64,000 nt of DNA from Verrucomicrobiia bacterium (lineage in GTDB: Bacteria > Verrucomicrobiota > Verrucomicrobiia > Palsa-1439), in assembly GCA_022072455.1 (NCBI GenBank), contig JAJVHY010000021.1:1-64000 (forward strand), read 5' to 3'. Below are positions 38,551-60,602 of the stretch, piece by piece. The position numbers were made by a program, and so were the translations under genes. A model generated the notes under the pieces. The model was not told the origin of the DNA and made no database searches. It saw nothing but the letters and a program-made list of their open reading frames with translations. The first letter of the stretch is position 1. The number at the start of each line of letters is the position of its first letter.

Positions 38551-38562
38551 CGCCGGCCAACG

Positions 38563-38594: not shown

Positions 38595-38616
38595 CGACTC
38601 TTGCAGAAGAGTGGTC

Positions 38617-38886: not shown

Positions 38887-38991
38887 TGTCGGATCTCCTT
38901 TGGGTTAATAGCTTGAGGGCGGATACTACTGGTTTCCCTTTGAATTTGCACCGATAATCTTCACTACCCCCGCCCGGTAGACCGGCCCGCT

Positions 38992-39324: not shown

Positions 39325-39375
39325 GATTGTCTTCTTTCAACCGTGGTGGGTTGCACTTCCTGTCGCCGCCGCCGG

Positions 39376-40257
39376 CTATCCAACCGCAACGGGTTGCCCC
39401 GTTTCCCGGCTTTGGTTGGCTGCACAAATGATACGGACGATTTCAAGTGTTTCGGCCACCGGCACGTCGGACTTGCCGGCGGGCAGGGTGCGCAGGATCG
39501 CTTCGAGCATGCAAACGGTGGGCGAACGTTTCGCCGCCGCCGCGTCGACTTGCCGGGAGGTCTTCTGGTGATGGACCACGGCCCCGAATTGCCAGTGCGC
39601 TTTGCGCAGTCCCCGGTAAAATGCGCTCCGCCCATCGCTCCACGCGAACGTGACGAGATCGTAATCGTCAGTCGCAGTGACATGGACGCGCCGGCAACCG
39701 ACGCCAAGCGTGGCGACAATCATTTCGATCCCGTGAATTCCGTACCAGAAATAACCGGGCGTTGGCGGTTGAAAATCGAGCGGGCCGTAGACATCCAGAC
39801 CGAGGATGCGTCCATGGTCGGCCGTCGTGCGCAGGGCTTCGACGTAGCGGAGACCGGAACAACTCACGACCGGGACGTTGTGTTCCGCGGCGAGATCGGC
39901 GATGGCTTGCGCGTCGGCCACCGTCACGGCAAAGGGTTTATCAATGAAGACCGGCTTTTTGAATTTGGCGATCTCCGCGAATTGACGGCGATGGGCGCGG
40001 CCATCCACGGCGGTGATGAAGACGAGATCCGCTTGCGCGGCGACGGCGGCCGGGCTGTCGAGGATGGCGACACCGTATTCATCCTGGAGTCGTTTCGTGA
40101 AGCCGGCAACGCGGTTGATGCTGACCGGCATGTCGGGCGAGGCGGCGGGAACGCCACAGACGATCTGGCCGCCGGGGACTTGCCCTTTGTTGAGAATTTC
40201 CGCAAAGGACATGACGTGCGACGTGTCGAGTCCGATTAGGCCAATGCGTAAGCTCAT
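39376..40257 (-). CDS. Gfo/Idh/MocA oxidoreductase
   Basis: A 293-residue, shorter member of the family: GLIGLDTSHVMSFAEILN at the start, then DLVFITAVDGRAH, then VFIDKPFAVTVADAQ with the Lys-Pro pair. The substrate domain is small. It lies immediately upstream (51 bases, same strand) of the decayed NagB-like gene. It is divergent from the oxidoreductase at 40322 across a 64-base gap that holds a short CCCGCA-GT-GCGGG type hairpin. Confidence 0.85.
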   Translation of the reverse strand: MSLRIGLIGLDTSHVMSFAEILNKGQVPGGQIVCGVPAASPDMPVSINRVAGFTKRLQDEYGVAILDSPAAVAAQADLVFITAVDGRAHRRQFAEIAKFKKPVFIDKPFAVTVADAQAIADLAAEHNVPVVSCSGLRYVEALRTTADHGRILGLDVYGPLDFQPPTPGYFWYGIHGIEMIVATLGVGCRRVHVTATDDYDLVTFAWSDGRSAFYRGLRKAHWQFGAVVHHQKTSRQVDAAAAKRSPTVCMLEAILRTLPAGKSDVPVAETLEIVRIICAANQSRETGQPVAVG

Positions 40258-40321
40258 TATGTTCTTGCCCGCAGTGCGGGAGCACTTCTAATACTCTCCC
40301 GCATCGTTAAATTGCAATCCT

Positions 40322-41476
40322 ATGAAAAATCTTATTCGCATCGGGGTGGTGGGGCTGGGTCGGGGACAATCGTTCATGGAAGGAGCGACGGCGGCGACCG
40401 GACTGAAACTGGTTGCCATCTGTGACCAGCAGGAAGCGCGGGCACAGGCGGTCGCCAAGAAGTACGGCGTCACGACATACTCCGACTACGATAAATTTCT
40501 CGAACACGACATGGATGGCGTGGTGCTCGCGAATTATTTTCACGAACACACCCCGTTCGCGATCAAAGCGCTGCGCGCCGGCAAGCATGTGATGAGCGAG
40601 ACGGCGGCGTGTTCAACGCTGGCCGAAGGCGTGGCGTTGTGTCGGGAAGTCGAGCGTACCGGGAAAATCTACATGTTCGCGGAGAATTACCCCTTCACCG
40701 CCGCCAGTTTGACGATGGAACGCCTCTACAAAGCCGGCAAGCTCGGGGAAGTCCGGTATGCCGACGGCGAGTACAATCATCCCGGACCGCCGCCGGCGAA
40801 ACGGCCGCCGCTGACGAATCTGCATTGGCGCAATCGGATTCCGTCCACTTACTACTGCACGCACGCGCTCGCGCCGTTGATGCAGATCACCGACACCTGG
40901 CCGGTCTCGGTCAACGGTTTTTCCATCGTCTCCCCCCGGCATCCGAACAGCGTTCGCCGCGGCGATACCGGCTCGGTGATCATTTGCCGGATGGACAATG
41001 GCGCAGTGTTCCGGCTGTTCGGCTTGTGCATGGGCGGACACAGCATCTGGTACCGGCTGCATGGAACACGCGGGATATTGGAGACGTTGCGCGGCCCCGG
41101 CTACTTCGGGCCAAACGGCGTGCGCGTGGCGATTGACGAATGGAATTGCCGGACGGGCGAGAAAGCGGAGGAAGTCGTCATGCCGCAGTTCCCGAAATGG
41201 GCGAAAGGCGCGGAAGCGGCCGGCCACGGGGGGGGCGATTTCTTCACGAACTACCTCTTCAGCCAAGCCATCCGCACCGGCCAGCAACCATTCCTCGATG
41301 TTTACCGGGGTGTCGCGATGTCGGTGGTCGGCATTCTCGCTTGGAAGAGCGCGTTGCAGAACGGCGCGCCGTTCGCGATGCCGGATTTCAAGAAGGAAGC
41401 CAGCCGGCGTAAACACGCCAAAGACACGTGGTCGCCGTTCACCGGCAGCGCGCCGTGCGGAACGAAGTACCCATGA
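40322..41476 (+). CDS. Gfo/Idh/MocA oxidoreductase, paralog of 43091-44338
   Basis: A 384-residue oxidoreductase: IGVVGLGRGQSF, then FLEHDMDGVVLANYFHEH, then MSETAACSTLAEGVALCREV. The last replaces the usual EKP by SET, so the catalytic Lys-Pro motif is altered. The C-terminal DVYRGVAMSVVGILAWKSAL and APFAMPDFKKE segments are almost shared with the gene at 43091. The stop overlaps the DegT aminotransferase start (ATGA), which suggests oxidation of a hydroxyl followed by transamination of the ketone. Confidence 0.88.
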   Translation: MKNLIRIGVVGLGRGQSFMEGATAATGLKLVAICDQQEARAQAVAKKYGVTTYSDYDKFLEHDMDGVVLANYFHEHTPFAIKALRAGKHVMSETAACSTLAEGVALCREVERTGKIYMFAENYPFTAASLTMERLYKAGKLGEVRYADGEYNHPGPPPAKRPPLTNLHWRNRIPSTYYCTHALAPLMQITDTWPVSVNGFSIVSPRHPNSVRRGDTGSVIICRMDNGAVFRLFGLCMGGHSIWYRLHGTRGILETLRGPGYFGPNGVRVAIDEWNCRTGEKAEEVVMPQFPKWAKGAEAAGHGGGDFFTNYLFSQAIRTGQQPFLDVYRGVAMSVVGILAWKSALQNGAPFAMPDFKKEASRRKHAKDTWSPFTGSAPCGTKYP

Positions 41477-42771
41477 GCGCGAAGCTCGCGCTGCTCGGCG
41501 GTCCGAAATCTTTCAACCTCAACGTTCCGGAGTTGTTCCACTGGCCCATCGTCACAAAAGAGGACGAAGACGCCGTGCTCGACGTGATGCGCCAAGGCAA
41601 GTTCAGCGGGACCGACATCACGAAGGAATTCGAGAAGGAATGGGCGGCGTACAACGGCACGCAGTACGCACTCGGTACCTGCAACGGTACCGCGGCGATT
41701 CATGCGTCGCTGTGGGCGTGCGGCGTCGGCGCCGGCGACGAGGTGATTTGCCCGAGCATGACGTACTGGGCGACGGCCACGCCGGCGTTGATGCTGGGAG
41801 CGGCGGTGAATTTCGCCGACGTGGATCGCAATACGCTATGCATTGATCCGAACGACATCGAACACCGCATCAGCCCGCGCACGAAGGCGATCCTCGTGGT
41901 CCACTACACCGGCCATCCCGCCGACATGGACGCGATCATGGCCATCGCGCGCAAACACAACGTCAAGGTCATCGAAGACGTCTCGCATGCACAAGGCGCG
42001 TTGTACAAAGGCCGGATGCTCGGGTCGATTGGTGACATATCACCGATGAGCATGATGGGCGGCAAAGGTTTTGCCATCGGCGAAGCCGGCATGATCGTGA
42101 CCAACGATAACGAGCTGTACCAACGCGCCGTCGCGTTCGGCCACTACGAACGCACCGGCGTCGCCTCACGTTACAACCCGGCCGTGGACGTGATCTCACT
42201 TCCCGAGTTGAAACAATACGCCGGCATGCCGATGGGCGGATGCAAACATCGGATGAACCAGACTTGTGCCGCGTTGGGCCGCACCCAACTCAAACGGTTC
42301 CCCGAACGCATCCAAGCCATTCAGGACGCGCTGAATCGGTTTTGGGATTTACTCGACGGCGTGCCGGGCTTGAAGGCGCACCGGCCCCCGAAGGATTCCG
42401 GCTCGACGATGGGCTGCTGGTACGCCGCGACCGGTTTGTATCGCGCCGAAGAACTGGGCGGCTTGTCGTGTGCGCGGTTCACGGAAGCCGTGCGGGCGGA
42501 AGGTTGGCGGCAATGCTGGCCCGCCGGCAACGCGGCGTTGCATCTGCACCCCTACTTCCACACCGCCGATATCTTCCACCAAGGCCAACCCACGATGCTC
42601 GCGTTCGGTCAGCGCGACGTCCGCCAAGGCCCCGGGACGCTGCCGATCTCCGAGAACATCGGTCAACACTGCTACACGATCCCCTGGTTCAAACACGACC
42701 GGCCGGAGGAGATCAGACAGTTCGCCGATGTGTATCGAAAAGTTGCCGAACACGCCGACCAGTTGTTGTAG
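41473..42771 (+). CDS. DegT/DnrJ/EryC1 family PLP aminotransferase
   Basis: A 432-residue sugar or cyclitol aminotransferase. The N-terminus is LALLGGPKSFNLNVPELFHWP, followed by the family motifs GTCNGTAAIHASL and VIEDVSHAQGALYKGR. The PLP lysine is in MMGGKGFAIGEAG near residue 198, followed by GGCKHRMNQTCAALG. The start GGPKS with an 'inosose' type layout resembles aminocyclitol transaminases such as StsC, but that is only a likeness. It is coupled to the upstream oxidoreductase. Confidence 0.9.
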   Translation: MSAKLALLGGPKSFNLNVPELFHWPIVTKEDEDAVLDVMRQGKFSGTDITKEFEKEWAAYNGTQYALGTCNGTAAIHASLWACGVGAGDEVICPSMTYWATATPALMLGAAVNFADVDRNTLCIDPNDIEHRISPRTKAILVVHYTGHPADMDAIMAIARKHNVKVIEDVSHAQGALYKGRMLGSIGDISPMSMMGGKGFAIGEAGMIVTNDNELYQRAVAFGHYERTGVASRYNPAVDVISLPELKQYAGMPMGGCKHRMNQTCAALGRTQLKRFPERIQAIQDALNRFWDLLDGVPGLKAHRPPKDSGSTMGCWYAATGLYRAEELGGLSCARFTEAVRAEGWRQCWPAGNAALHLHPYFHTADIFHQGQPTMLAFGQRDVRQGPGTLPISENIGQHCYTIPWFKHDRPEEIRQFADVYRKVAEHADQLL

Positions 42772-42820
42772 AAGCGAATTTAATTCGCGACCGGTGGTTC
42801 GGTCAAGGTTATCTTGACCG
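42769..42820. repeat. Palindromic repeat, partial copy F
   Basis: After TAGAA, GCGAATT-t-AATTCGC (42774-42788) is a perfect palindrome. CGGTCAAG-gttat-CTTGACCG (42800-42820) is a perfect hairpin. The pair has the two-stem layout of the other copies but lacks a closing outer arm. It begins at the aminotransferase stop codon and could end transcription. Confidence 0.6.
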
Positions 42821-43090
42821 CCGCAGATTCAATAACCGAAGAGGCTGGTCGCAAAATCAATTGGGTTTCCGCCTTGATATATTAGGGCAAATCGCCAGAT
42901 CGATTTGACCTGATATCAATCGGGTTAGCGGCAAACGCACTAAATGTCCGTCAATTTTCGGCGGTTATTGGTGATCCACCGTTCGTCGTCGGCCACGGCA
43001 TCCGGCCAAGTGACGTCGGTTTCAAAACGGCACACAGTCCTGAAACACCGCGAAAACACCTGCCTGACTAAAATCCGAAACCGAAGCCGC
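42821..43090. other. Comparatively AT-rich gap with possible gene remnant
   Basis: Between convergent genes. Bases 42838-42950 are more AT-rich than the surroundings. On the minus strand, 42940-43155 reads DVTWPDAVADDERWITNNRRKLTDI at its end, which has natural-looking composition but overlaps the oxidoreductase gene and has no recognised family. It may be a remnant. Confidence 0.35.
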
Positions 43091-44338
43091 TCAATCCACC
43101 GAATAGCCGTGTTGCTTCCAGGTTTTTTTGGCGCGGGCGAGGACCTTCGGCGCAATCGTCAGTTTCCCCAGCACGCTGGCGGGGGCTTGGCCGTCTCCGG
43201 TCGCATCTGGCCACGGCGACCAGTGGTCGTTCTCGAATTTCTGGCGGACGGATTCCTTCTTGAAGTCCGGCATCGCGAATGGCGCACCCTTTTCCAGCGC
43301 GCTCTTCCACGCGAGAATGCCGACGCTGCTCATCGCCACGCCCCGGTACACATCGAGGAATGGTTGCCGGCCCGTGCGAATCGCTTCGGCAAAATAGAAG
43401 TTCGTCCAGAAATCGCCGCCACCATGACCGGCGCGATTCGCGAGGTCGCCATGTTCCGGCCAGTCAGGATAATAAGTCCGGTCATGATCCACCGTGGATT
43501 TCTGGTCCCACGGATCATGCCACACGCGAACACTGCCGGGGCCGAAGTATCCCGGCCCGCGCCCAATCTCCATCGCCCCGTGCGTGCCATGGACGCGATA
43601 CCAATTGCTGTGGCCGGGCGACCATAGCCCAAAGATCCGGAATACCGCGCCATTGTTCATCCGGCACAGAATCACCGAGCCGGGATCATTGAACCGCGGC
43701 GCCTGACGGGTGAGTTCCGGGATGGCGATGGACAACCCATTGACGCTGACCGGCATCGTGTCCGTGATGTACATCAACGGCGCCAGCGCGTGGGTGCAGT
43801 AGTACGTTGACGGCAGCCAATTGCGCCAATGCTTCGTGCCGGGCGAGATGCTGTTCAAGTCATCAATGCTCATCGGGTGGTTGTATTCACCCTCAGCGTA
43901 CGTCACGCGGCCGATCTCGCCGGTGCGATAGACGCGGCGCATCTCCAGGTTGAACTTCGTGAACGGATAGTTCTCCGCCAACATGTAAATCCGCTTGGAC
44001 CGCTCGACTTCCCGGCAGAGGGCGACGCCCTCAGCCAAGGTCGCGTTGGAGGAAGTCTCGCTCATCACGTGTTTACCGGCACGGAGAGCTTTGATCGCAA
44101 ACGGCGCGTGCTGATGGAAGTAATTTGCCAGCACCACGGCATCCATGTCGTGTTCCAGAAACCTGTCGTAATCCGTGTACGTCGCGACGCCGAACCGTTT
44201 CCCGACTTCTTTGACCTTGTCTTTCCACTGATCGCAAATCGCGACCAGCTTCATCCCGACCAATTCGCTCGCTCCGTGCGCGAAACATTGTCCACGCCCG
44301 ACGCCAATTACGCCCACTCGAATCAATTTTTTACTCAT
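43091..44338 (-). CDS. Gfo/Idh/MocA oxidoreductase, paralog of 40322-41476
   Basis: A 415-residue oxidoreductase: RVGVIGVGRGQCFAHGA, then DMDAVVLANYFHQHAPFAIK, then VMSETSSNATLAEGVALCRE. As in its paralog, SET replaces the usual EKP. The substrate domain and the DVYRGVAMSSVGILAWKSAL segment match the gene at 40322 closely. It has a longer C-terminus. AAAGGGA precedes the ATG at 44338. It lies 13 bases after the membrane-protein gene and is probably the last gene of the operon that begins at 51975. Confidence 0.88.
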   Translation of the reverse strand: MSKKLIRVGVIGVGRGQCFAHGASELVGMKLVAICDQWKDKVKEVGKRFGVATYTDYDRFLEHDMDAVVLANYFHQHAPFAIKALRAGKHVMSETSSNATLAEGVALCREVERSKRIYMLAENYPFTKFNLEMRRVYRTGEIGRVTYAEGEYNHPMSIDDLNSISPGTKHWRNWLPSTYYCTHALAPLMYITDTMPVSVNGLSIAIPELTRQAPRFNDPGSVILCRMNNGAVFRIFGLWSPGHSNWYRVHGTHGAMEIGRGPGYFGPGSVRVWHDPWDQKSTVDHDRTYYPDWPEHGDLANRAGHGGGDFWTNFYFAEAIRTGRQPFLDVYRGVAMSSVGILAWKSALEKGAPFAMPDFKKESVRQKFENDHWSPWPDATGDGQAPASVLGKLTIAPKVLARAKKTWKQHGYSVD

Positions 44339-44351
44339 TTTTTCCCTTTCG

Positions 44352-45083
44352 TTAATCCGCCTCTTCCACAAACGCCTTCCGCGAAATCATGTGAAACACT
44401 CCTAAACCGGCCAAATACACAACCCACGACAACGCCAACGCCCAGCCCATCCCAAGCTGCGGTTGCAGGCACCGAATGCAGATCATCATCGGAATGACGA
44501 GCACCAAGATCCACGGAATCCGCCGCACATTCGTCCACAAGCTGTACCGGGCTTCGTACGTCGCGACAACTCCCACCATCGGAAATGCCGTGGTGAAACC
44601 ACCCAACTGGTTCTTGATCTGCAACACCCCCAAAATCACCATCACAATTGCTGGAAACTTGATCCACAACGGCAACGGCGTGCGATGATGCGGTTCCTCG
44701 CGATACGGCAGCCACCGAATCAACGCCACTCCCACCGCGAATGTCACCACCGTCGCCAGCCAGAAATGGCCATCGCCCGTCAACTGCAAGCTGGTGATTC
44801 CCGTGCCGATCAAACAGTAGCCGGCCACCGCAATCACGATGGCCACCACGATCGGCAACTTCAGGCGCACGTACAACGCCCACGCCGCGACCGTATACCC
44901 GAACATCAACAACATCGCCCAGACGTTCGTCGCATCCAGCGGTTTGCCGACGGTCAGCAACGCAAACGTAAACGGGATGGGCAGCATCAGCACAAACGCC
45001 TTGTGCTCCGGATTCCGCAAATACGCCACCGCCGTGCCCATGACCGACACGGTGAGAATCAGCGCCCAATCCCAAGCGTTCAC
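44352..45083 (-). CDS. Polytopic membrane protein
   Basis: A 243-residue integral membrane protein with about eight hydrophobic segments and short loops. A charged loop (WLPYREEPHHRTPLP) lies near the middle, followed by LQIKNQLGGFTTAFPMVGVVATYEAR. No transporter family is recognised with confidence. The start is 3 bases after the aldolase stop, so it is in the sugar operon and may be its permease or a subunit. Confidence 0.75.
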   Translation of the reverse strand: MNAWDWALILTVSVMGTAVAYLRNPEHKAFVLMLPIPFTFALLTVGKPLDATNVWAMLLMFGYTVAAWALYVRLKLPIVVAIVIAVAGYCLIGTGITSLQLTGDGHFWLATVVTFAVGVALIRWLPYREEPHHRTPLPLWIKFPAIVMVILGVLQIKNQLGGFTTAFPMVGVVATYEARYSLWTNVRRIPWILVLVIPMMICIRCLQPQLGMGWALALSWVVYLAGLGVFHMISRKAFVEEAD

Positions 45084-45086
45084 TCC

Positions 45087-45896
45087 CTAGCCCAGCTTGT
45101 ACTTCGCCACCATTCTGGCCGGCGAAGCATTATTTTTCACCACCTCGCTCAGCGCAGCTTGGAACGCGTGCGGGTTCTTCACCTGAATCGCATTCCGCCC
45201 AAACACCACGCCACCCGCACCGGCTTTGACTTCGCGTTCCGCCAACTTCAACGCATCGAGTTGCGTCGGCAACTTCTCCGCCCCCAACCCGAGCACCGGC
45301 ACCGGACACGTGCTCGTTACTTCCTGAAACCGGACCGTATTGAACGTCTTGATCACATCCGCGCCCAATTCCGCCACGATCCGCGAGCCCGTCTTCACAT
45401 CCGAATGCAACTCCTCCGCTGACATCTCCAAATGCCCGGTCGGGAAATACTCGCCGATGACCGGCACACCCAGGCGATGCGCCGCCGTCGTCAACGCGCA
45501 GAAATTCTCGATGTTCGCCGCATCCCGCTCCTCGCTGCCGGTGTGCAACGTCAACGACACCAATGCCACATCCATCCCCTCGCGCAGGGCATCCTCGACA
45601 CCGTAAGCCGCCACGCTCTTCGCCTGCCGGTAATTCCAGTGAAAGCAATACACCGTGTTCCAATTCAGCCGCACCGCCGCGACCGGCCGTCGTTGCCCGG
45701 CAAAGATCGACCCACAATGCCGCAACATGCCCGGCGCCAGCAACACCGCGTCCACCACCGGATTGATCTTCTCCGCCGTCGCCGGCAAGTCTTCCATGGC
45801 CGGGATCGGCCCATCAAACATCCCATGGTCGATCGCCACCACCACGGCCCGCCCGACACCCATCAACCGCTTCAACTGAATTTCACGTCCGTCCAT
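45087..45896 (-). CDS. Class I aldolase (DeoC/LsrF/FBA-I-like)
   Basis: A 269-residue TIM-barrel aldolase. VVVAIDHGMFDGPIPAMED at the start, LLAPGMLRHCG, VPVIGEYFP, LGADVIKTFN with the Schiff-base lysine near residue 178, and AGAGGVVFGRNAIQ for phosphate binding are the marks of the LsrF / archaeal class I FBA group. It likely splits or builds a keto-sugar phosphate. ATG at 45896 has GGAG upstream. It is 8 bases after the amidohydrolase gene. Confidence 0.87.
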   Translation of the reverse strand: MDGREIQLKRLMGVGRAVVVAIDHGMFDGPIPAMEDLPATAEKINPVVDAVLLAPGMLRHCGSIFAGQRRPVAAVRLNWNTVYCFHWNYRQAKSVAAYGVEDALREGMDVALVSLTLHTGSEERDAANIENFCALTTAAHRLGVPVIGEYFPTGHLEMSAEELHSDVKTGSRIVAELGADVIKTFNTVRFQEVTSTCPVPVLGLGAEKLPTQLDALKLAEREVKAGAGGVVFGRNAIQVKNPHAFQAALSEVVKNNASPARMVAKYKLG

Positions 45897-45904
45897 GATT
45901 TCTC

Positions 45905-46927
45905 CTATTTTCGTTTCACTCGTTTCAACAATCGCATTCCATAATCCCAAAACATCCCGTGCACTTCTTTCTGCTTCAGTCCCGCCAAATCCGCCGCCCA
46001 CCGCAACGCCAGCGCAATCTCCACTGACATGTACGTCGCGTGAATCTCGCCGGCCACGCGGTAGGCACTCTTCGGATACCCCGGCAACACTACGTCCACC
46101 CAATGATCCATCACGCTGACGCGGCGCCCGCGCATGTTGGCCACCGGAAAATCAGTCGCGTACAACACCCGCTGCGGTCCGATCACGTCGAGCGCCAGTT
46201 GCAGACAGACCGGCTCCATCACCATCGAAACGTCCATGACCACGTTCGGCAGATTCCGAATCGAATGAATCGCACGTTTCATCTCCGACGGGATGTAACA
46301 CCGCCCACCGTGCGCCAAAACAATCGACGCCTCCGGGCACTCCTTCGCCAACCATTGCACGCCCTTCTGTATCACCGGATCCGCCAACCGCCCGGACCGC
46401 GGCACATGCAACATCGTGACCAACCGACGTTCATTCATCAGTTCGAGTTCGGTCTTCCCAAACATCTCCTCAACGCGCTTGTCGCCGTAGTTGTCGCCGA
46501 ACCAGTTCAGGAAAACCTTGAAACCGTAAAACCCGCCTTCATCCAGTGCGCGAATGTAGCGCTCCCGGCTGATGCCGAGGTCCGGCCCCGCCAACACCAG
46601 CGGATAGATGTTCGGATGCTTCCGGGCAGCCGCCGCCATGTATGCCGTGTCCTTTTCCCAAACCGTGACCGGCACGGGATAACCAAACGCTACCGCGTGA
46701 TATTCCCGATCCGGAAACGTCCGCTGCCCATCCGCCAACAACATTTTGGCCGGATACTCCGGCACCGAGACCATGTACTGCGCGCCTTTCGCGCCCACTT
46801 TCCACGGTACGTCCTTCCAGTTCTTCGACGACCAAATGTGCGTATGAAAATCCAGCACCTTCGGCGGCAACATCGGCGCGATCTCGCGCCGGTAAAACTC
46901 GAGTTCCTGTTTCGTGATTTTGTTCAT
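45905..46927 (-). CDS. Amidohydrolase-family (TIM-barrel) hydrolase or lyase
   Basis: A 340-residue protein with VLDFHTHIW near residue 25 (HxH metal motif), GFYGFKVFLNWFGDNYG, VTMLHVPRSGR, SIVLAHGGR near residue 198, and YATDFPVANMRG near residue 254 with the last metal Asp. This fits amidohydrolase_2 enzymes (ACMSD-like / lactonase-like). In a sugar operon a lactonase or dehydratase-like role is plausible but not proven. It overlaps the isomerase gene by 4 bases. Confidence 0.82.
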   Translation of the reverse strand: MNKITKQELEFYRREIAPMLPPKVLDFHTHIWSSKNWKDVPWKVGAKGAQYMVSVPEYPAKMLLADGQRTFPDREYHAVAFGYPVPVTVWEKDTAYMAAAARKHPNIYPLVLAGPDLGISRERYIRALDEGGFYGFKVFLNWFGDNYGDKRVEEMFGKTELELMNERRLVTMLHVPRSGRLADPVIQKGVQWLAKECPEASIVLAHGGRCYIPSEMKRAIHSIRNLPNVVMDVSMVMEPVCLQLALDVIGPQRVLYATDFPVANMRGRRVSVMDHWVDVVLPGYPKSAYRVAGEIHATYMSVEIALALRWAADLAGLKQKEVHGMFWDYGMRLLKRVKRK

Positions 46928-48306
46928 ATCGTCACCAATCCAATTCCGGCAAAGCGAGCGAACGCCGCCAGTTCTTCCGTTCTTTCTCCGAGTACCAACG
47001 CCGCATGATGTGTCCCGCCATGCCGCGAGTATTCCTCCAAAAATTTCGTCGCGCCTAGCCGGGGCTGCATCCAACCGCGCACCGTGTTCTTCATGTCTTC
47101 GCGGGTCGTGTCGCCCAACATCTCGACCGGTGACACGATCAAATCAAAACTGTTCTTCGGCCCCGGTACGAGATTCACATACACCGCCGGCCCCGGCCGA
47201 ATCGCGCCGACCAACGCCGTCGTGTGACACCCGAGAAAACCAAAATCCCGCACCGCCATCCGCGGCTTACCGGCGACCGTTGCCAGACCGATCTCACCCA
47301 TGTGCGACAGGAACAACGAACCGCCATGCCAATCGCTACAAAAGATCTCCGTGAACGTCGTCTCGCCAAACCCGGTCGCCAACGCTCCCATCAGGTTTGC
47401 CGTGAGAATATCGCCTTCGCCGCCGAAGCCGACGCCGCGTTCCATCGCCTTCGAGATTTCCGCAAACGGCATGGCCGGTGACGTCGGCTTGTCGAGAATC
47501 AGAAAGTTCACACTGAACCCGGTATAGTCCGCGCGTCCGAGCAACTTCCGCAGCCCCAGCCCGGCCTGCGTCGCCTTCCGGTGCAAATCGTCCTTCACCT
47601 GGATGTCGTACCGCTGCCGGTCTTCTGCCATCTCGGCCTCGACCTCCGCTGGCTTCACCGTCTTGATCGCGGCCGCCAACTCCTGCGCCGAACCCTGCAC
47701 CACCGTCACTCCAAACGCGCTCCGCATCACCTCGTTCGCGACCGCGAAATCGCCCATCCCTTTGAACGACGGCCCGATCCGCAACACCTTGCCACCGCGA
47801 AAACGCCGCGCCGCCACTGCCGCTTCCGCCAACCTCGCGACGCGCTCCAACGCGTTCGATTCCGTCAAATGTCCCGCGACCACCTCGAATTGCCGGCCGA
47901 GACGCCGCAGCACCGACGCCAAATCCATCACGCCGTGCACCCCGTGGTTGTACATGATCTTCTTCGGATCAACGTCGCGCCCAAAATCCGCGTCGAGTGT
48001 CGTATCGAGCACGATCAACGGCCGTTTCATCTTCGCCAAAATCGGCGCGCTCTCCAACGACGGCGAGTACGCGAGATGCAACGTCACCACGCAATCCACG
48101 TCCTGCTTCTCGAACCACCCCACCGCCGCCGTCACCTCCGCCGCGACCCGGCACACCTGCGCCGCCAGCACCGTCCCGCCCCGCGCGCTCAACCCCTTCT
48201 CCACCGCCACCAGCAGCGGATCAAACCCGGCCCGACATTCCGGCAGCGTGTCGTCGTACAATTTCAAATAGAGCGGCAACAACCCAATCTTCGGATTTCG
48301 TTTCAT
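46924..48306 (-). CDS. L-arabinose/L-fucose isomerase-like sugar isomerase
   Basis: A 460-residue protein of the arabinose/fucose isomerase fold. The N-terminal domain has IGLLPLYLKLYDDTLPE and a DCVVTLHLAYSPS segment. The C-terminal metal site is visible as GFGGEGDILTANLMGAL (Glu), TEIFCSDW then LSHMGE (Glu and His), and GGTHHAAL near residue 435 (His). The substrate is unknown. The distant similarity means a different aldose. AAGGAGAG precedes the ATG. Confidence 0.82.
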   Translation of the reverse strand: MKRNPKIGLLPLYLKLYDDTLPECRAGFDPLLVAVEKGLSARGGTVLAAQVCRVAAEVTAAVGWFEKQDVDCVVTLHLAYSPSLESAPILAKMKRPLIVLDTTLDADFGRDVDPKKIMYNHGVHGVMDLASVLRRLGRQFEVVAGHLTESNALERVARLAEAAVAARRFRGGKVLRIGPSFKGMGDFAVANEVMRSAFGVTVVQGSAQELAAAIKTVKPAEVEAEMAEDRQRYDIQVKDDLHRKATQAGLGLRKLLGRADYTGFSVNFLILDKPTSPAMPFAEISKAMERGVGFGGEGDILTANLMGALATGFGETTFTEIFCSDWHGGSLFLSHMGEIGLATVAGKPRMAVRDFGFLGCHTTALVGAIRPGPAVYVNLVPGPKNSFDLIVSPVEMLGDTTREDMKNTVRGWMQPRLGATKFLEEYSRHGGTHHAALVLGERTEELAAFARFAGIGLVTI

Positions 48307-48315
48307 GATCTCTCC

Positions 48316-49761
48316 TTAAAATTTCAACGGCGTATTTCCTTCGCGTCCTAACACCCGCTCGAACAACTCCGCATACACTTCGTAACCTTCCCGGATTTTA
48401 TCGGCCTCACGCGGCAACACCACGCGCTTCGCCTTCCCGGCCGACGCGTGCTTGCCGAACGCATAGACGCATCCCCGCAACCCGGCCACGTCCTCCTCCT
48501 GCAACGCATCCACCGGCAACGGCGCAAACAACGCCGCGAGGTACTGCCGGAAACAAGCTCCCTTGCTCGCCCCGCCGCCCAACACCACGCTGTCGGCCTT
48601 TCGCTGGTCGCGCACTTGCCGGAAAATCCGCAACATCTCGTACGACATCGACAACGCCACCGCCCGCACAAAATCCTCGCGCTGCGCCGCCACGCCCCCG
48701 CCATAAAACCCGCCGGCTCCCACCGCGTCGCGTTTGAGCGGATTCAGCATGTGCATCCACGGCAACGCCACCATGCCGGGCGGCGGCAACAGTTGCTTCT
48801 CGAACACCGCTGCTGCATTCCGCAGCCCACCGACGAACGTATCGAGTGCCCAATCCCACGTCACATTCCCGGTCCACAACGCCTGCACGATCATCCAGCC
48901 GTCATGGTGCGGGGCCGGGACGACAATCTGATTCGGCGACTGCGCCCGCTCATTTGCCGGCAATGTAAAATTCCCAACCCAGGCCGTCCCCAACGAACAC
49001 TGCAACGGCCGGTCGCTCACGCCCACTGCCGCCAGATACCCGGCCTCGTGGTCAAAGTATGGCCCCGCCACCGGCAACCCCGCCGGCAATCCCCACCGCG
49101 ACAACGACGGCACCGTCGAATGCCCCTCCCGCATCGGCGCGACAAACGACACCGGAACATCCACCAACGCCAACGGTCCCGCATCCAACCGCCGTTCCGG
49201 TACCCGGTAACACCCGATCTGAATCGCGTTGCCGGCATCCTGCCGCCACTGGCCGGTCAGTTGGAAGAACGCATACTCGCCCGCCCCAACATAAATGTTG
49301 TCCGCCGTGAAAAGTTTTGGATTTTGCTCCCGCAACCACAACATCCGCGCCAGTCCCCAACCGGGGTTGGTGTTGAATGCCAGCTTTTGCCAATACGCGA
49401 CCGGCTTCATCCCGGCCACTTTAGGCAGCAAGCGCAGCGGGCGTTGATCACTCCACAACCGCATCGGCGTCAGCGCCCGTCCGGTGTTTCGATTGCAGAT
49501 GATGAAGCTGCCGCCCTGCGCCGCCAGCCCGACGCCGGCAATCTGCTTCCAGCGCGTCCCCAGCCGACGCCGGAGTTGCGCCATCACGAGGTCAAGCGCG
49601 CGATCGACATCGGAAAGTGACTGCTCGCGCGTCCCGTCCGCTTCCGCGCGCACCGGCAACCGATGCGAGGCTACCGCCAACACGCGGCCAGTTTTCCGGT
49701 CGAGCACGCCGGATTTCAGGACAGTCGTGCCGAGATCAATGGCCAGTAAGAGTTCGTTCAT
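48316..49761 (-). CDS. FGGY-family carbohydrate kinase
   Basis: A 481-residue kinase: LLAIDLGTTVLKSGVLD (phosphate-1 loop), GVGLAAQGGSFI, MRLWSDQRP, the conserved Asp in QDAGNAIQIGCYR, and VVLGGGASKGACFRQYLAALF (adenosine motif) near residue 400. It would phosphorylate the ketose made by the isomerase, ready for the aldolase. The ATG overlaps the DeoR stop by 4 bases and the isomerase follows after 9 bases. Confidence 0.9.
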   Translation of the reverse strand: MNELLLAIDLGTTVLKSGVLDRKTGRVLAVASHRLPVRAEADGTREQSLSDVDRALDLVMAQLRRRLGTRWKQIAGVGLAAQGGSFIICNRNTGRALTPMRLWSDQRPLRLLPKVAGMKPVAYWQKLAFNTNPGWGLARMLWLREQNPKLFTADNIYVGAGEYAFFQLTGQWRQDAGNAIQIGCYRVPERRLDAGPLALVDVPVSFVAPMREGHSTVPSLSRWGLPAGLPVAGPYFDHEAGYLAAVGVSDRPLQCSLGTAWVGNFTLPANERAQSPNQIVVPAPHHDGWMIVQALWTGNVTWDWALDTFVGGLRNAAAVFEKQLLPPPGMVALPWMHMLNPLKRDAVGAGGFYGGGVAAQREDFVRAVALSMSYEMLRIFRQVRDQRKADSVVLGGGASKGACFRQYLAALFAPLPVDALQEEDVAGLRGCVYAFGKHASAGKAKRVVLPREADKIREGYEVYAELFERVLGREGNTPLKF

Positions 49762-50507
49762 GGTTTTGCCAGAATCAGTTTTGCGTTCCGTGTCACCCAG
49801 CGGCGATCCTTCAAGCCGGTATCCGTGACCACCGTGTGAATGTTGTCCCAAGAACTAAAGTGATAAAACGACGGCGTGCCAAATTTCGAACTGTCAGCGA
49901 CGAGCACACACTGTTGCGCGCCGCGGATCATCGCCTGCGACACCCGCGCCACTTCGGGACTGTTCGTGAACAATCCATCCGGCGTGACGCGATCCGCTCC
50001 GATGAAAGCAATATCCACCCGAAATCGCCGCAGATTCTCTTCCGTCAACTCGCCAAAAAGGTCCGGCTCGTTCCGTCGTGCTTCGCCGCCCAGCAACGTC
50101 AGCCGGATGCCCTCGAACGGATGCAACGCCGCCGCCACAGCAAGCGAGGAAGTCAACACCCGCAGATTCTCGATCCCGCTCAACGCTCGTGCCACTTCCA
50201 ACGTCGTCGTGCCGGTGTCCAGGGTGACACTCATGCCGGGCGAAACCAGGCCGGCTGCCGCTGCCGCGATGGCTTTTTTCGCCGCCGCCATGACCTCCTC
50301 GCGGCGCCGCAACCGAAATTCAATCTGGCCCGGCTTCGACAACACCGCGCCGCCGTGCGTGCGTTCGAGCCGACCGGCGGCTTGCAGCTCGTCGAGGTCG
50401 CGCCGAATCGTGGCGGGCGTCACCCGAAACCGCGCCGCCAGACGCGCGACGGAAACCGACCGCCCGGCTTGGAGCGACTCAATGATTTCGTGATGTCGTG
50501 AGTGCAT
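49758..50507 (-). CDS. DeoR-family transcriptional regulator
   Basis: A 249-residue repressor of the DeoR/GlpR type. The N-terminal winged HTH has SVARLAARFRVTPATIRRDL near residue 20, then RTHGGAVL. The C-terminal sugar-phosphate sensor domain contains VTLDTGTTTLEVARAL, LLGGEARRNEPDLFG and DIAFIGADRV. It likely represses this operon and is induced by a phosphorylated sugar intermediate. The best operator candidate is the inverted repeat at 51992-52026. A longer frame starts at 50534, but ATG 50507 fits the family better. Confidence 0.9.
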   Translation of the reverse strand: MHSRHHEIIESLQAGRSVSVARLAARFRVTPATIRRDLDELQAAGRLERTHGGAVLSKPGQIEFRLRRREEVMAAAKKAIAAAAAGLVSPGMSVTLDTGTTTLEVARALSGIENLRVLTSSLAVAAALHPFEGIRLTLLGGEARRNEPDLFGELTEENLRRFRVDIAFIGADRVTPDGLFTNSPEVARVSQAMIRGAQQCVLVADSSKFGTPSFYHFSSWDNIHTVVTDTGLKDRRWVTRNAKLILAKP

Positions 50508-51975
50508 CGCGCATTCGCTGCAATGTGTAATCAATCAACGCGTCATCGGCAATGGTCGGCAGTTTCGTCAGCGCGACTGGCGGACATTCCGCTTTGTAAC
50601 TCTGCACGCTGATATCGAATCCGGCCGCATTCATGGCGGCGACAAACGCCTGACCGTGCGCCATGTCCGCGAAACGCAGGCCCAACAGATGCCCGTGGCC
50701 CTCCACGCCCGCCAACGTGTCGGGAAATTCACCGGCCAGTTGCCGGCAGCCGGTTTCGAGCCGCTGCCCGGCAGCGGTGATGGCCGAGCCATTGGCCTGC
50801 GTCCATCTCATCGTGATGAGATACGCCAGCGACGCCAATTCCTCCTGCCCGTTCGTCACCAGCGCACCAAATTGCGGCAGCGAGTCAAACCGTTCATTGA
50901 ACAAAATTCGCGAGGCCGGATATTCGCCGCCGGGAAACCCTTTACCGAGCACCACCATCGTCGGCTGAAGTCCATATTGCCGGAACAGGAACAAGCCGTC
51001 GTACCACATGCACGATTGAATCTCGTCTACGACCGTCGGCACATCGTGTGCGGCGCACAGCCGGTGCGCGTGCTGCAGGAATTCCTCCGTCAACCGCCGC
51101 GCGCCATAATTCATCATGACGATCTCATGGAAAAACCCGGCAATCTTGAACGGCGCTTGCTCGAACTGCCGGAATGCCGCGTCGAGGTCGGCTATCGAGT
51201 TCGGGCGAATCGCGACGACGCGCATCACACCGGTCGCTTCCAGTTTCGTCCGCAACTCCGGCCACAGTCCGCGCAGCACCTGGGTAAAATTCGTCGTCCC
51301 GTGATAATTACCGGTCACCGCCCCGTCATCATCACCCATCACGAGAAAGACCGGCGTGCGTCCCGCGTACAACGGCGACGCGCCTGTCAGCTCATGCCGG
51401 TAAAACCTGCCGAGGACGAGCTTGAAGGCCGCCTCCGCCGCGAGACTGCCGGTTTCGAGATTGAGCACCCGGTTCAACCCGCCGCCGGCCAGCCGCACCA
51501 ATTCCTCTTCGAGCCGACGCGTAATCGGCCCGCGCGTGTTATTGTGCGTCGCGTTCGGGATGCCCAACGCGCGCGCCCGTTCGAGCAATTGATAACCGGG
51601 AAAACTGTGTCCGAGCGGCGCATGATAATGTTCGCTCTTGGAAATCACATACAACCGCCCGTCCTCACCGACGCGGAAATACCCGAGGCCTGACACTGGC
51701 GCCATGTGCGATTTTGTTGCCGCCGCAAAACCGCGCGAGCCAGCCCCGGTTGGGCTGCCTGTCAACGGTGCGCCCACTACCTGCCCGGCCTGCGGCAAAA
51801 ACTGCCGCAACCGCCGCTGCAATGACTCCGGAAAGAATTCAACCCGGTCAGTTCCCAACCGCACGAGCGCTGCCGGATCGACGCCGGTCAAATAGGCGCG
51901 CGCCGTGGCGGCTGCGGTGACAACATTCGCGCCCACCAAATCGGCCAAGGAACAAGCAACAGAAGTGAAACTCAT
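50479..51975 (-). CDS. Class III (acetylornithine/4-aminobutyrate type) aminotransferase
   Basis: A 498-residue PLP enzyme. LNLETGSLAAEAAFKLVLG corresponds to the cofactor phosphate site. HEIVMMNYG and VPTVVDEIQSCMWYDG contain the PLP Asp. The Schiff-base lysine is in VVLGKGFPGGEYPAS near residue 325. The N-terminal 80 residues are longer than usual. It is the first gene of the operon, overlapping the regulator by 29 bases. It may transaminate an aldehyde or keto product of the sugar pathway, which is inference. Confidence 0.85.
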   Translation of the reverse strand: MSFTSVACSLADLVGANVVTAAATARAYLTGVDPAALVRLGTDRVEFFPESLQRRLRQFLPQAGQVVGAPLTGSPTGAGSRGFAAATKSHMAPVSGLGYFRVGEDGRLYVISKSEHYHAPLGHSFPGYQLLERARALGIPNATHNNTRGPITRRLEEELVRLAGGGLNRVLNLETGSLAAEAAFKLVLGRFYRHELTGASPLYAGRTPVFLVMGDDDGAVTGNYHGTTNFTQVLRGLWPELRTKLEATGVMRVVAIRPNSIADLDAAFRQFEQAPFKIAGFFHEIVMMNYGARRLTEEFLQHAHRLCAAHDVPTVVDEIQSCMWYDGLFLFRQYGLQPTMVVLGKGFPGGEYPASRILFNERFDSLPQFGALVTNGQEELASLAYLITMRWTQANGSAITAAGQRLETGCRQLAGEFPDTLAGVEGHGHLLGLRFADMAHGQAFVAAMNAAGFDISVQSYKAECPPVALTKLPTIADDALIDYTLQRMRDALTTSRNH

Positions 51976-51991: not shown

Positions 51992-52037
51992 TGTTTGTTT
52001 GCGCGTCGAACGGTAGCAAACAAACATCCCCCGTCAA
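51992..52037 (-). promoter_or_regulatory. Promoter with overlapping inverted-repeat operator
   Basis: TGTTTGTTTGC (51992-52002) and GCAAACAAACA (52016-52026) are perfect 11-base complements separated by 13 bases. On the minus strand, TTGACG (52032-52037) and TACCGT (52010-52015) form a -35/-10 pair with a 16-base spacer. One operator half fills that spacer and the other lies at the expected start of transcription. This is the classic layout of a repressor site, probably for the DeoR protein. Confidence 0.6.
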
Positions 52038-52163: not shown

Positions 52164-52745
52164 ATGCAAGCTGACGAAAATTGGATGCGTTCCGTCCTGA
52201 GAGAACACGAAGGCCCGTTGCTGCGTTACGCCATGCGCTTGACCGGCAGCCTCGACCGCGCCCGCGACGTCGTCCAAGACACCTTCGTCAAACTCTGCCG
52301 CGAACAAAGCCGGGAAGGCCTCAACAGCCACCTACCCGCCTGGCTTTTCACCGTCTGCCGCAACCACGCGCTCGACCTCCTCCGCAAAGAAGGCCGGCTC
52401 ACCGCGCTCACCGACGCCGAACTCGCCGCTCACCCGAGCCCCGAGCCGACGCCCGCCGCGCAAGCTGCCGACCGCGAAGCCGAGGCCGATGTCCTGCGCG
52501 CGCTTGAAGGTTTACCGGCGAACCAGGCCGAAGTGATCCGGTTGAAATTCCAAAACGGATTCAGCTACCGGGAAATCAGTCGCGTCACCAAACTCAGCGA
52601 GAGCAACGTCGGTTTCCTGATTCACACCGGCTTGAAAACCATGCGCCAGCGTGTCCGCGCCCTCGATAGTAGAACGGGCTTCCAGCCCGTTCATTCCCGC
52701 AAAAACGAGCAAGATGCTCGTTCTACGGAAGGAGAGCGCCCATGA
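52164..52745 (+). CDS. ECF-type RNA polymerase sigma factor
   Basis: A 193-residue sigma-70 family protein. Region 2 is LLRYAMRLTGSLDRARDVVQDTFVKL and PAWLFTVCRNHALDLLRKE. Region 4 is LEGLPANQAEVIRLKFQNG, then FSYREISRVTKLSESNVGFL. It ends in about 25 extra residues encoded by a palindromic repeat (52669-52726), which is not part of the sigma fold. Its stop overlaps the start of the anti-sigma/vWA gene, so the two are coupled and the second protein probably controls the first. Confidence 0.9.
   Translation: MQADENWMRSVLREHEGPLLRYAMRLTGSLDRARDVVQDTFVKLCREQSREGLNSHLPAWLFTVCRNHALDLLRKEGRLTALTDAELAAHPSPEPTPAAQAADREAEADVLRALEGLPANQAEVIRLKFQNGFSYREISRVTKLSESNVGFLIHTGLKTMRQRVRALDSRTGFQPVHSRKNEQDARSTEGERP
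52669..52726. repeat. Double-hairpin palindromic repeat, copy C
   Basis: GTAGAACG (52669-52676) and CGTTCTAC (52719-52726) are the outer arms. AACGGGCT-tcc-AGCCCGTT and AACGAGCA-aga-TGCTCGTT are the inner hairpins. It lies inside the 3' end of the sigma-factor gene, and AAGGAG for the next gene follows three bases later. Confidence 0.85.
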
Positions 52746-55042
52746 AGATTGACTTGAACGATCCCAAACTCACCGCCTACGCCCTCGGCGAACTTTCCGC
52801 CGCAGACCGGCAAACATTCGAGACTGCGTTGGCCGAAGACCCCGCCGCCCGGCAGGAAGTCGAGCGCATCCAACTCGCTGCCGGTATGTTGAAAGAACGA
52901 CTCGACAGCGAGCCATGCCCGCGCCTCGAACCAGCCCAGCGGAACGTCATCTACGAGAAACTCACGCCCGCCGAAACTCCGGTCGGGTTCCGCTGGTGGG
53001 CCGGCGCGCTGGCAGGTGTGGCGGCGTTGGTTCTCATTGCTGGATTGATGCTACCGGCGCTGAACACGTCACGCGGCAAGGCGCGGCAATTGCAGGTTTA
53101 CTCCCAAGCCAACGAACGTTTCGCGCTCACCGCGCCGCCAAAGGGCGAGAGACCAGCCTTGGATCAGGTCGACGACGCCCTCAACACCACCCCCGCTCCA
53201 GTTGCGGCGCCGGCAGTCGAAGAGCCAGTCATCCTCCCAACGCCGGTAATGTCCCCCCCACCTTCAGACAAGGAAATCAAAGTCATCCGAGGCACGGCCA
53301 CTGTATTTGATTCCAAGCTGAGCTCATCCGGTGGCCTTCATGCCGAAACTGTGCAACTACGCGCCACCAGTGCATACAGCAACCCGACGTTTCAAGACGG
53401 AAGCGGTCCACGCGGTCAGTTTGGCTCCGAAGGCGGTCTACGAAATGCAACTTTATCGAAAGCCCCTATGTCTGGTCCTCCTGGATCTGCTGGGGGCGAT
53501 ATGGACATCGCGTCTGCACGTAAGCCATCCGGCAGTGGCGGCGGGCTCTATCGACCGGAAAATGAATCGCGTGTGGTTCGCCAAGTCCCATTCCGGCGCG
53601 AGTCTGAATTCGCGACAGTCAAAGAATCTCCCGGCACCGAAAGCTACGCGCCGGTATACGACAATCCGTTCTACGTCGTCACCGACCAACCGCTCTCCAC
53701 GTTCGGACTGGATGTGGACACCGCGTCGTACTCCAACATCCGCCGGTTTCTCCTGAACAATCAGTTGCCGCCGCGCGACGCCGTCCGCATCGAGGAGATG
53801 CTCAACTATTTCTCCTACGACTACCCCGCCCCGCGCGGTCGCGAACCGTTCTCCCTCTACGTCGAGATGGGCGAATGTCCGTGGAATCCTGCGCACCAAC
53901 TCGCGCTTGTCGGTCTCAAAGCCAAGGACATCACCGCCCGCGAACAACCGCCGCTCAACCTCGTCTTCCTGATCGATGTCTCCGGCTCGATGCAGCCGGC
54001 GAACAAACTGCCGTTGATCAAGCAAGCATTGCGGCTGCTTGTCCCGCAACTCAGCGCCCGCGACCGGGTTTCCATCGTCGTCTACGCCAACAACGCCCGC
54101 GTCGCACTCCCCTCCACCCGCGGCGACCAACACCGGCGCATCCTCTCCGTCATCGACGAACTCAACGCTGACGGCGGCACCAACGGCGGCGAGGGAATCC
54201 AAAACGCCTACGCACAAGCCTCGGAGAATTTCATCAAAGGCGGCGTCAACCGCGTCATCCTCTGCACCGACGGCGACTTCAACGTCGGCATCACGGACCA
54301 GAGCGATCTCACGCGCCTCATCAAAGACAAGGCAGCGAGCGGCATTTTCCTGAGCGTGTTCGGGTTCGGTATGGGCAACCTCAAGGATTCAACCATGCAG
54401 AAGCTCGCGAATAACGGCAACGGCCACTACGCCTACATCGACGATCTCGACGAAGCGCGCAAAGTTCTTGTGGATCAAGCCCGCAGCACAATCATCACCG
54501 TCGCGAAGGACGTGAAACTCCAGGTGGAATTCAACCCCGCCCAAGTCCAAGCCTACCGGCTGATCGGTTACGAGAAACGTGCCCTCGCGGCCCGCGACTT
54601 CAATGATGACCGCAAAGACGCCGGCGACATCGGCGCGGGCCACACGGTCACGGCGTTATACGAAATTGTTCCGGCCGGTGAAGCCGTGGGCGAACCCGGC
54701 GTTGATGCACTCAAGTATCAACCGGCCAAGAATCGTCCCGCCGTCAACGGCGAATGGGCGACAGTCAAATTCCGCTACAAAAATCCCGACGCCGACAAGA
54801 GCCAACTTCTCACCGCCGCGCTCAAGAACTCCGGCCTGCGCTGGCGCACCGCAAGCGACGACTTCCAATTCGCCGCTGCTGTCGCCACATTCGGAATGGT
54901 GCTTCGCGACAGCCCGCAGAAAAGCGAATCAAACCTCAACCTCGCGTTCGAGCTAGCCACCGCCGGTCGCGGTCGCGACGCAAACGGTTACCGGAGCGAG
55001 TTCGCTGATCTGGTAAAGCGCGCCGGTGAGCTTTCCCGCTAG
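52742..55042 (+). CDS. YfbK-like vWA protein with anti-sigma-like N-terminus
   Basis: A 766-residue protein. Residues 1-60 (LTAYALGELSAADRQTFETA) look like the zinc-less anti-sigma domain that binds ECF factors. A transmembrane helix spans about 85-107. After a variable periplasmic linker come the YfbK N-terminal domain (FGLDVDTASYSNIRRFL near 320), a vWA domain with intact MIDAS D412-V-S414-G-S416, and the C-terminal DUF3520 region. It probably senses an envelope signal and holds or releases the sigma factor. It is coupled to the sigma gene by ATGA. Confidence 0.9.
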   Translation: MKIDLNDPKLTAYALGELSAADRQTFETALAEDPAARQEVERIQLAAGMLKERLDSEPCPRLEPAQRNVIYEKLTPAETPVGFRWWAGALAGVAALVLIAGLMLPALNTSRGKARQLQVYSQANERFALTAPPKGERPALDQVDDALNTTPAPVAAPAVEEPVILPTPVMSPPPSDKEIKVIRGTATVFDSKLSSSGGLHAETVQLRATSAYSNPTFQDGSGPRGQFGSEGGLRNATLSKAPMSGPPGSAGGDMDIASARKPSGSGGGLYRPENESRVVRQVPFRRESEFATVKESPGTESYAPVYDNPFYVVTDQPLSTFGLDVDTASYSNIRRFLLNNQLPPRDAVRIEEMLNYFSYDYPAPRGREPFSLYVEMGECPWNPAHQLALVGLKAKDITAREQPPLNLVFLIDVSGSMQPANKLPLIKQALRLLVPQLSARDRVSIVVYANNARVALPSTRGDQHRRILSVIDELNADGGTNGGEGIQNAYAQASENFIKGGVNRVILCTDGDFNVGITDQSDLTRLIKDKAASGIFLSVFGFGMGNLKDSTMQKLANNGNGHYAYIDDLDEARKVLVDQARSTIITVAKDVKLQVEFNPAQVQAYRLIGYEKRALAARDFNDDRKDAGDIGAGHTVTALYEIVPAGEAVGEPGVDALKYQPAKNRPAVNGEWATVKFRYKNPDADKSQLLTAALKNSGLRWRTASDDFQFAAAVATFGMVLRDSPQKSESNLNLAFELATAGRGRDANGYRSEFADLVKRAGELSR

Positions 55043-55059: not shown

Positions 55060-55118
55060 TGTAGCCGCAGGCTTTAGCCTGCGCGTTACCGAACGCACCC
55101 GTAAAGGGTGCGGCTACA
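55060..55118. repeat. Double-hairpin palindromic repeat, copy D
   Basis: TGTAGCCGCA (55060-55069) and TGCGGCTACA (55109-55118) pair fully, and AAAACC/GGTTTT extends the stem outside. Inner hairpins are GCAGGC-ttta-GCCTGC and CGCACCC-gtaaa-GGGTGCG. It lies between convergent genes and contains the stop codon of the minus-strand gene. Confidence 0.85.
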
Positions 55119-56643
55119 GAAAAAGGTTTTGAAATGACTTCTCGTCAGCCGTAGCAACGAAGCGTCGACCATCGCGCCGGCAAACGAGTTGCATGACCTG
55201 CCGGCCCGAGAATAGACACGGCGGCACGCCGCCGCCCGGCATCACCCACTGACCGGCCATGTAGAAGTTTGCCAAACCCGGCAAAGTTTTCGGCAACTGG
55301 GCGCGCATCGCTTGCGGTGTCGGACGCCAACCCATGAACGCTCCCTCGTGATTCAACGTGTAGCGCCAAGTCGTGTACGGCGTTGCCACGTCGGTCAACT
55401 CCAGCGCCGCAGTCAACCCGGGATAATGCGGTTCGAGCCGGTGGAGAATGTCCGCCGCAACCCGCTGTTTTTCGGCTTCATACCGGGGCCGGTCGTGCTG
55501 GAGGTCGTTCCAGAATTTCCAGTCGGTATGCACCAACGCCTGCACGATTGTCTTGCCGGCGGGGGCAAAGACGCGGCTGTAATTGAACACGCGCACCGGG
55601 AAGCCATCGAGAATCACGCCGCCGACGTTGAGCGGTTCTTTCACGAACAGGAAATTCAAGGCCGGCTCGTTCGGGTATTCGCGTTTGACGCCATAGCTGA
55701 CCGTCATGATCGGGAGGAACAACGGCCATTTTTCGAAACGTTCCTTGAGTTTGACGTCCACGTACCGGCCGCCGAGCATTTTGAAGATCGTGCTGTAGCT
55801 GTCGGCGGCGGAGATCACGAGGTCGGCGCGATGTTCGGTGCCATCGGCGAGCTTGATGCCGACCGCCCGGTTGTTCTCGACGAGGATTTCCTGCACCGTC
55901 GCCCGGTAGGTCACGGTGCCGCCGAGGCTCTGGTACCGTTCCACCAAGCTCGCGACGAAATCCGTGCAACTGCCGGTCAGCATTCCCATCTGTTTGTTGG
56001 CCAGCAACGCCAGCAGCAGGAGCACGAACCACACGGGCACTTCCGGCAGGAACAGGTTGATGAGCCACCGGCGGAGCTTTTCGTCCTTGGCGCGCTGGGC
56101 GAATTTTTCAATCGAGACGTTGTAGGGGCCGCCGAAATACTTGAGGACGCGCCGCAGTCCCCAGAATTGTTTGAGGACGCCGATGGGGCCGAGCAGCTCC
56201 GGCGCGGTCACCATCGTGGCGAACAGATCGGTCTTCTGCATCGCCCGCACGCCGGCCATGAGTTCGTCAATCAACCCGGTATCCTGCGGCGCGAACTTCT
56301 TGAGGTCGCGCGCGAGTTGATCGAGGTCTTGCGAGAATTGAACCCGGCAGCCGCCGATTTCATCGATGTAATTCATGAACGTCGGCAAATCAGGGTACGT
56401 GCGGTTCTTGAAGATGCCCAGTTCCCAGTAAAGGTCGTAGCACACCTGTCCCGGTTTATGCCCCATCAGATAATGGATGCCGCCATCAATCAGGTAGTCG
56501 TCGCGTTTCCACGCAATGGCGACGCCGCCGGGTTCGTAGTGGTGCTCGAAAATGCGGCTCCGGTAACCATTCATTTGCGCGTAGCTGCCGGTCGCCAACC
56601 CGGCCAGTCCCGCGCCAATGATGATGATGGATTTTTCGGCCAT
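55114..56643 (-). CDS. CrtI/CrtISO-like FAD-dependent oxidoreductase
   Basis: A 509-residue flavoprotein: SIIIIGAGLAGLATGSYAQM (FAD dinucleotide motif), HYEPGGVAIAWKRDDYLIDGG (typical of phytoene desaturase and carotenoid isomerase proteins), ADLVISAADSYSTI, and a C-terminal AGQWVMPGGGVPPCLFSGRQV motif closing the FAD site. It might desaturate or isomerise a polyene. It is divergent from the ammonia-lyase gene, 83 bases away, which suggests a shared control region. Confidence 0.87.
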   Translation of the reverse strand: MAEKSIIIIGAGLAGLATGSYAQMNGYRSRIFEHHYEPGGVAIAWKRDDYLIDGGIHYLMGHKPGQVCYDLYWELGIFKNRTYPDLPTFMNYIDEIGGCRVQFSQDLDQLARDLKKFAPQDTGLIDELMAGVRAMQKTDLFATMVTAPELLGPIGVLKQFWGLRRVLKYFGGPYNVSIEKFAQRAKDEKLRRWLINLFLPEVPVWFVLLLLALLANKQMGMLTGSCTDFVASLVERYQSLGGTVTYRATVQEILVENNRAVGIKLADGTEHRADLVISAADSYSTIFKMLGGRYVDVKLKERFEKWPLFLPIMTVSYGVKREYPNEPALNFLFVKEPLNVGGVILDGFPVRVFNYSRVFAPAGKTIVQALVHTDWKFWNDLQHDRPRYEAEKQRVAADILHRLEPHYPGLTAALELTDVATPYTTWRYTLNHEGAFMGWRPTPQAMRAQLPKTLPGLANFYMAGQWVMPGGGVPPCLFSGRQVMQLVCRRDGRRFVATADEKSFQNLFL

Positions 56644-56726
56644 GAGTGCGGGAAAGTCATATTGCCGGGCACTTGCTTGTTCAAGTCGTTTATTGTAGGA
56701 CTTCTCGCCCCGTTGGATCGGAATTC

Positions 56727-60600: not shown

Positions 60601-60602
60601 CG

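Follow-up and report, generated by a model that had tools for sequence, protein, structure and literature searches.

Gene content and surroundings of the operon

The window, meaning the whole 64,000-nt stretch of DNA that was analysed, contains an operon of eight genes at 43091-51975, all running in the same direction on the minus strand. The first is AMT (50479-51975), a class III PLP-dependent aminotransferase of 498 aa, followed by a DeoR-family repressor (49758-50507, start ATG 50507; PF00455 162 bits, PF08220 63 bits) and an FGGY carbohydrate kinase (48316-49761; PF00370 92 bits, PF02782 29 bits). Next are ISO (46924-48306; PF11762, PF24856 and PF02610), an aldose/ketose isomerase of the L-arabinose-isomerase superfamily, and AMH (45905-46927; PF04909 72 bits), an Amidohydro_2 protein. 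The operon ends with ALD (45087-45896; PF01791 55.6 bits), a class I aldolase of the DhnA/LsrF type (DeoC/LacD), MEM (44352-45083), a hydrophobic membrane protein without a Pfam or NCBIfam match, and GFO (43091-44338; PF01408 and PF22725), a Gfo/Idh/MocA oxidoreductase. An initial sequence-only reading had made the same eight assignments, and all are borne out.

Shine-Dalgarno sites and ATGA junctions of 4 bases were used to correct the gene starts. With these starts, DeoR/FGGY and ISO/AMH each overlap by 4 bases, and gaps of 9, 8, 3 and 13 bases separate FGGY from ISO, AMH from the aldolase, the aldolase from MEM and MEM from GFO. The spacing first described, an overlap of 4 bases or else a gap of 3-13, is right for every junction but that of AMT and DeoR, which overlap by about 29 bases. 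Calling the operon complete was too strong, because its genes include no recognisable transporter and because alanine dehydrogenase, a cluster member elsewhere, is encoded in this genome on another contig, outside the operon.

Just upstream of AMT, at 51992-52026, lies a putative DeoR operator, a perfect 11-base inverted repeat with a 13-base spacer (TGTTTGTTTGC-13-GCAAACAAACA). It occurs once within the window; of 2000 random stretches of 200 bp, 15 contained a perfect repeat of that size. L041/L062 have the same half-sites, equally spaced, ahead of AMT, and L070 has them with 2 mismatches; the operator search as a whole yielded only three convincing loci.

Convergent with the operon, at 40322-42771 on the plus strand, are a Gfo/Idh gene, paralogous to GFO, and a DegT aminotransferase gene; a DegT gene of the same sequence cluster is found near AMT in two other loci (L064, L071). 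Further Gfo/Idh genes lie at 37318-40257, so that at least four are present within 37318-44338. On the other side, an ECF-type sigma factor and then a YfbK-type von Willebrand protein (52164-55042, plus strand) diverge from the operon. Beyond them, 55114-61808 encodes a flavin amine oxidoreductase and two tryptophan-halogenase-like proteins, one of them fused to a methyltransferase-like domain; these are possible natural-product genes.

Active sites of the trunk and accessory enzymes

ISO shares the fold and active-site residues of AraA. Its E297, E320, H335 and H433/H434 are invariant in 15 homologues and align with the two Glu of AraA that bind metal and its two catalytic His, which places ISO in the AraA/FucI-fold isomerase superfamily. 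Against the L-arabinose isomerase equivalog, however, it reaches only 118.6 of 622 bits, and the genome has a separate true AraA (808 bits) and AraB (655 bits) on another contig. We therefore rejected the arabinose pathway.

The kinase has both FGGY domains, and the Asp of its ‘FDHEAG’ motif aligns with the Asp conserved in glycerol kinases, as expected of the family. Its best NCBIfam equivalog is XylB, at 124.8 of 380 bits; identities as xylulokinase, ribulokinase, fuculokinase or rhamnulokinase were all dropped, each falling below its NCBIfam cut-off. ALD has LsrF and MJ0400 as its best PDB matches, and the Lys of ‘DVIKT’ aligns with their Schiff-base Lys, in keeping with a DhnA/LsrF class I aldolase. 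Sulfofructose-phosphate aldolase YihT, also of the DeoC/LacD class I type, has the same fold and Schiff-base Lys. The LsrF and YihT systems nevertheless differ from this operon in kinase and isomerase, and the operon is without sulfonate genes.

An isomerase-kinase-aldolase trunk is well supported, and its logic is that of FucI-FucK-FucA for L-fucose and RhaA-RhaB-RhaD for L-rhamnose, with dihydroxyacetone phosphate and an aldehyde as the expected products. In contrast to those systems, the operon has an AraA-branch isomerase and a class I DhnA/LsrF-type aldolase in place of the class II FucA type, adds AMT, AMH and Gfo/Idh, and lacks any equivalog-level match. Indeed, none of its enzymes reached an NCBIfam equivalog cut-off. 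The initial suggestion that this may be a route apart from the standard ones for arabinose, fucose or rhamnose agrees with the absence of any assignment to the NCBIfam models tested for these, and the result that would have spoken against novelty, every enzyme being a clear orthologue of one in a known pathway, was not obtained. The order it proposed, aldose to ketose to ketose-phosphate to aldolase cleavage, fits the logic of the trunk, with “aldose” and “ketose-phosphate” deduced from fold and active-site residues.

AMT belongs to a distinct class III subfamily with an N-terminal extension of about 90 residues (PF00202, 71 bits). No NCBIfam model, the curated aminotransferase models included, came within reach of its cut-off. 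Its AlphaFold model (pLDDT 87) has the fold of class III aminotransferases, at 17-22% identity (Foldseek E 7e-22), and D317 and K345, the PLP Asp and Lys, are invariant in 20 homologues. Class III PLP enzymes also comprise racemases and lyases; the alanine dehydrogenase neighbours described below suggest that AMT is a transaminase.

AMH retains the amidohydrolase metal ligands: D26, H28, H30, H174, H206 and D259 are the same in all 24 homologues compared, and this set of HxH, two further His and a terminal Asp marks it as an Amidohydro_2 member. Whether AMH opens a lactone bears on one alternative, a sugar-acid route, in which Gfo/Idh would oxidise a sugar to a lactone and AMH would open it, the isomerase, kinase and aldolase handling a related sugar with AMT as an auxiliary. 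Gfo/Idh enzymes do oxidise sugars, and AMH shows a weak match to the L-fucono-1,5-lactonase equivalog (20.9 of 400 bits, over a 34-residue stretch and below the cut-off) and resembles COG3618 proteins in its modelled fold. That fold, however, suits amidohydrolase-2 decarboxylases equally well, for which reason we do not treat AMH as a proven lactonase; moreover, the operon has no sugar-acid dehydratase and the aldose-isomerase site of ISO is intact. We regard the sugar-acid route as quite unlikely.

MEM is tied to ISO through genome co-occurrence, as each of the eight MEM-bearing genomes among 289 sampled contains ISO as well, matched at E<=1e-40. It lies directly downstream of ISO in a sister operon (L172 in genome G201), where it is followed, as here, by a Gfo/Idh gene.

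Conservation of the cluster and its aldolase slot

Searching a public genome collection with an AMT alignment returned 273 relatives, of which the best 80 were surveyed; 79 of their loci were readable. These best 80 come from about ten phyla (Verrucomicrobia, Lentisphaerae, Kiritimatiellae, Planctomycetes, Armatimonadota, Hydrogenedentota, Omnitrophota, Chloroflexi, Spirochaetes and Firmicutes, besides single records under other labels). Within 10 kb of AMT, on contigs that are often short or end nearby, we found ISO in 42/79 loci, FGGY in 39/79, DeoR and Gfo/Idh in 33/79 each, AMH in 32/79, and ISO, FGGY and AMH together in 27/79. The recurrent core, AMT-(DeoR)-FGGY-ISO-AMH, is found across phyla, and its recurrence in many unrelated genomes places the gene set beyond chance. 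The aminotransferase and amidohydrolase, which the sequence-only reading had counted as parts of the operon, are genuine and recurring members. Some AMT copies have no other cluster genes nearby. Uroporphyrinogen-decarboxylase-like or corrinoid-methyltransferase-like genes also recur, in six clusters (L043, L044, L067, L085, L119 and L172).

To assess co-occurrence we used 289 sampled genomes from the phylum of the window, taking ISO matches at E<1e-70. Both AMT and ISO were present in 18 genomes, AMT only in 1, ISO only in 2 and neither in 268 (Fisher p 2e-25), and the shared occurrences include genomes that carry the two on different contigs. For ISO, FGGY, AMH, DeoR and alanine dehydrogenase alike, sequence distances correlate with the distances among AMT copies (r 0.48-0.87, uncorrected for species relatedness). 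Three genomes (G201, G064 and G011) keep ISO and lack AMT, which indicates that the trunk can run without AMT and that AMT may feed a general trunk.

The aldolase slot is taken by two unrelated folds, which are interchangeable. A class I aldolase fills it in the window and in L044/L115, L068, L096, L102, L133, L139 and L172, and a class II PF01116 aldolase in Robinsoniella (L130) and Subdoligranulum (L140), the latter with a compact GFO-aldolase-FGGY-ISO-AMT operon. Most of the 79 loci showed no aldolase near AMT. A link between AMT and one aldolase subfamily was dropped, as L096-type aldolases occur mostly in genomes without AMT; what recurs is the slot and not one family. One plasmid record, OY725846, had its operon read from ORFs.

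This exchange of aldolases supports the sugar trunk, and two further arrangements do the same. Where genomes lack AMT, an ALD-type aldolase lies beside Gfo/Idh and a PfkB kinase, joined in L154 and L156 by a XylA-like isomerase as a non-homologous replacement. G201 holds ALD-FGGY-AMH-ISO-MEM-GFO in one compact operon, its aldolase 57% identical to ALD, and its 96%-complete genome has no AMT orthologue.

The neighbourhoods also bear on whether the cluster might be biosynthetic, making an amino-sugar or amino-polyol by transamination towards the amine. The biosynthesis of amino-sugars and aminocyclitols typically involves pairs of Gfo/Idh and aminotransferase genes, and the DegT and Gfo/Idh pair described above adjoins the operon. 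Yet DeoR control, an FGGY kinase and an aldolase of retro-aldolase type speak for catabolism, as do the glycosidases, the sulfatases and the transporters of SSF or ABC type found near the cluster in relatives, and the operon encodes no nucleotidyl- or glycosyltransferase. We consider biosynthesis very unlikely.

A proposed route for aminated sugars

Of the 79 loci, 14 have alanine dehydrogenase in the vicinity of AMT, and the two copies that were scanned both exceed the curated cut-off. One locus (L067) has an OCD-family gene instead, a family that takes in some alanine dehydrogenases. In L040, L180 and L181 an AraA-like isomerase has a different class III aminotransferase as its neighbour, and in L158 so does an ALD; these may be parallel routes. 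The recurrence of alanine dehydrogenase and of other class III aminotransferases in such clusters supports transamination with pyruvate and alanine, and makes an aminated substrate the most economical reading. Taurine:pyruvate aminotransferase, a class III enzyme, pairs with alanine dehydrogenase to deaminate its substrate; AMT differs from it in matching no curated aminotransferase model and in being coupled to sugar enzymes. Of the substrates suggested earlier, a lactone, an acid or an amino-sugar, the last fits best because alanine dehydrogenase recurs, and the other two are weaker candidates, kept because AMH could be a lactonase.

We propose, with about even confidence, that the operon serves the catabolism of an aminated sugar or amino-polyol by deamination followed by isomerase, kinase and aldolase. 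AMT would transfer the amino group of the sugar to pyruvate, giving alanine, and alanine dehydrogenase would return alanine to pyruvate, releasing ammonia and NADH. Gfo/Idh may spend that NADH in reducing the resulting keto- or aldehyde-sugar, which would make deamination redox-neutral. ISO would then convert aldose to ketose, the FGGY kinase would add a phosphate to the ketose, probably at its C1, and cleavage by the class I aldolase would give dihydroxyacetone phosphate and an aldehyde. AMH, its metal site intact, probably serves either to open a lactone or to remove a substituent, and DeoR would repress the operon by way of the inverted repeat that precedes AMT.

Amination would account for the alanine dehydrogenase neighbours equally well, and AMT could act on the product of the aldolase. 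In one rival reading the trunk degrades an ordinary nitrogen-free rare sugar, with AMT and alanine handling the aldolase's aldehyde or another intermediate, much as class III enzymes act on glyoxylate or semialdehydes. Class III enzymes often do act on small aldehydes, and some genomes keep the trunk without AMT. We nonetheless think this unlikely: no element of the cluster is conserved more widely than AMT, which usually stands first in the operon; amination of an aldehyde would be wasteful in catabolism; and class III aminotransferases of at least three lineages are neighbours of the isomerase, kinase or aldolase genes.

The cluster is real and conserved, and in the open-access literature searched we found no description of it. 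Its trunk is of a familiar kind, whereas the transaminase front end is without match in the family libraries and open-access papers searched. The relatives of AMT come mostly from uncultured bacteria of groundwater, sediment, lakes, digesters and gut, and their spread over such habitats and about ten phyla suggests that the substrate is probably common. It is tempting to speculate, at somewhat less than even confidence, that this is an undescribed and widespread pathway in which an abundant amino-sugar or amino-polyol is first deaminated by a new class III aminotransferase subfamily, coupled to alanine dehydrogenase, and then enters the isomerase-kinase-aldolase trunk. Cultured carriers, among them Paenibacillus, Cohnella, Robinsoniella and Subdoligranulum, make the pathway testable.
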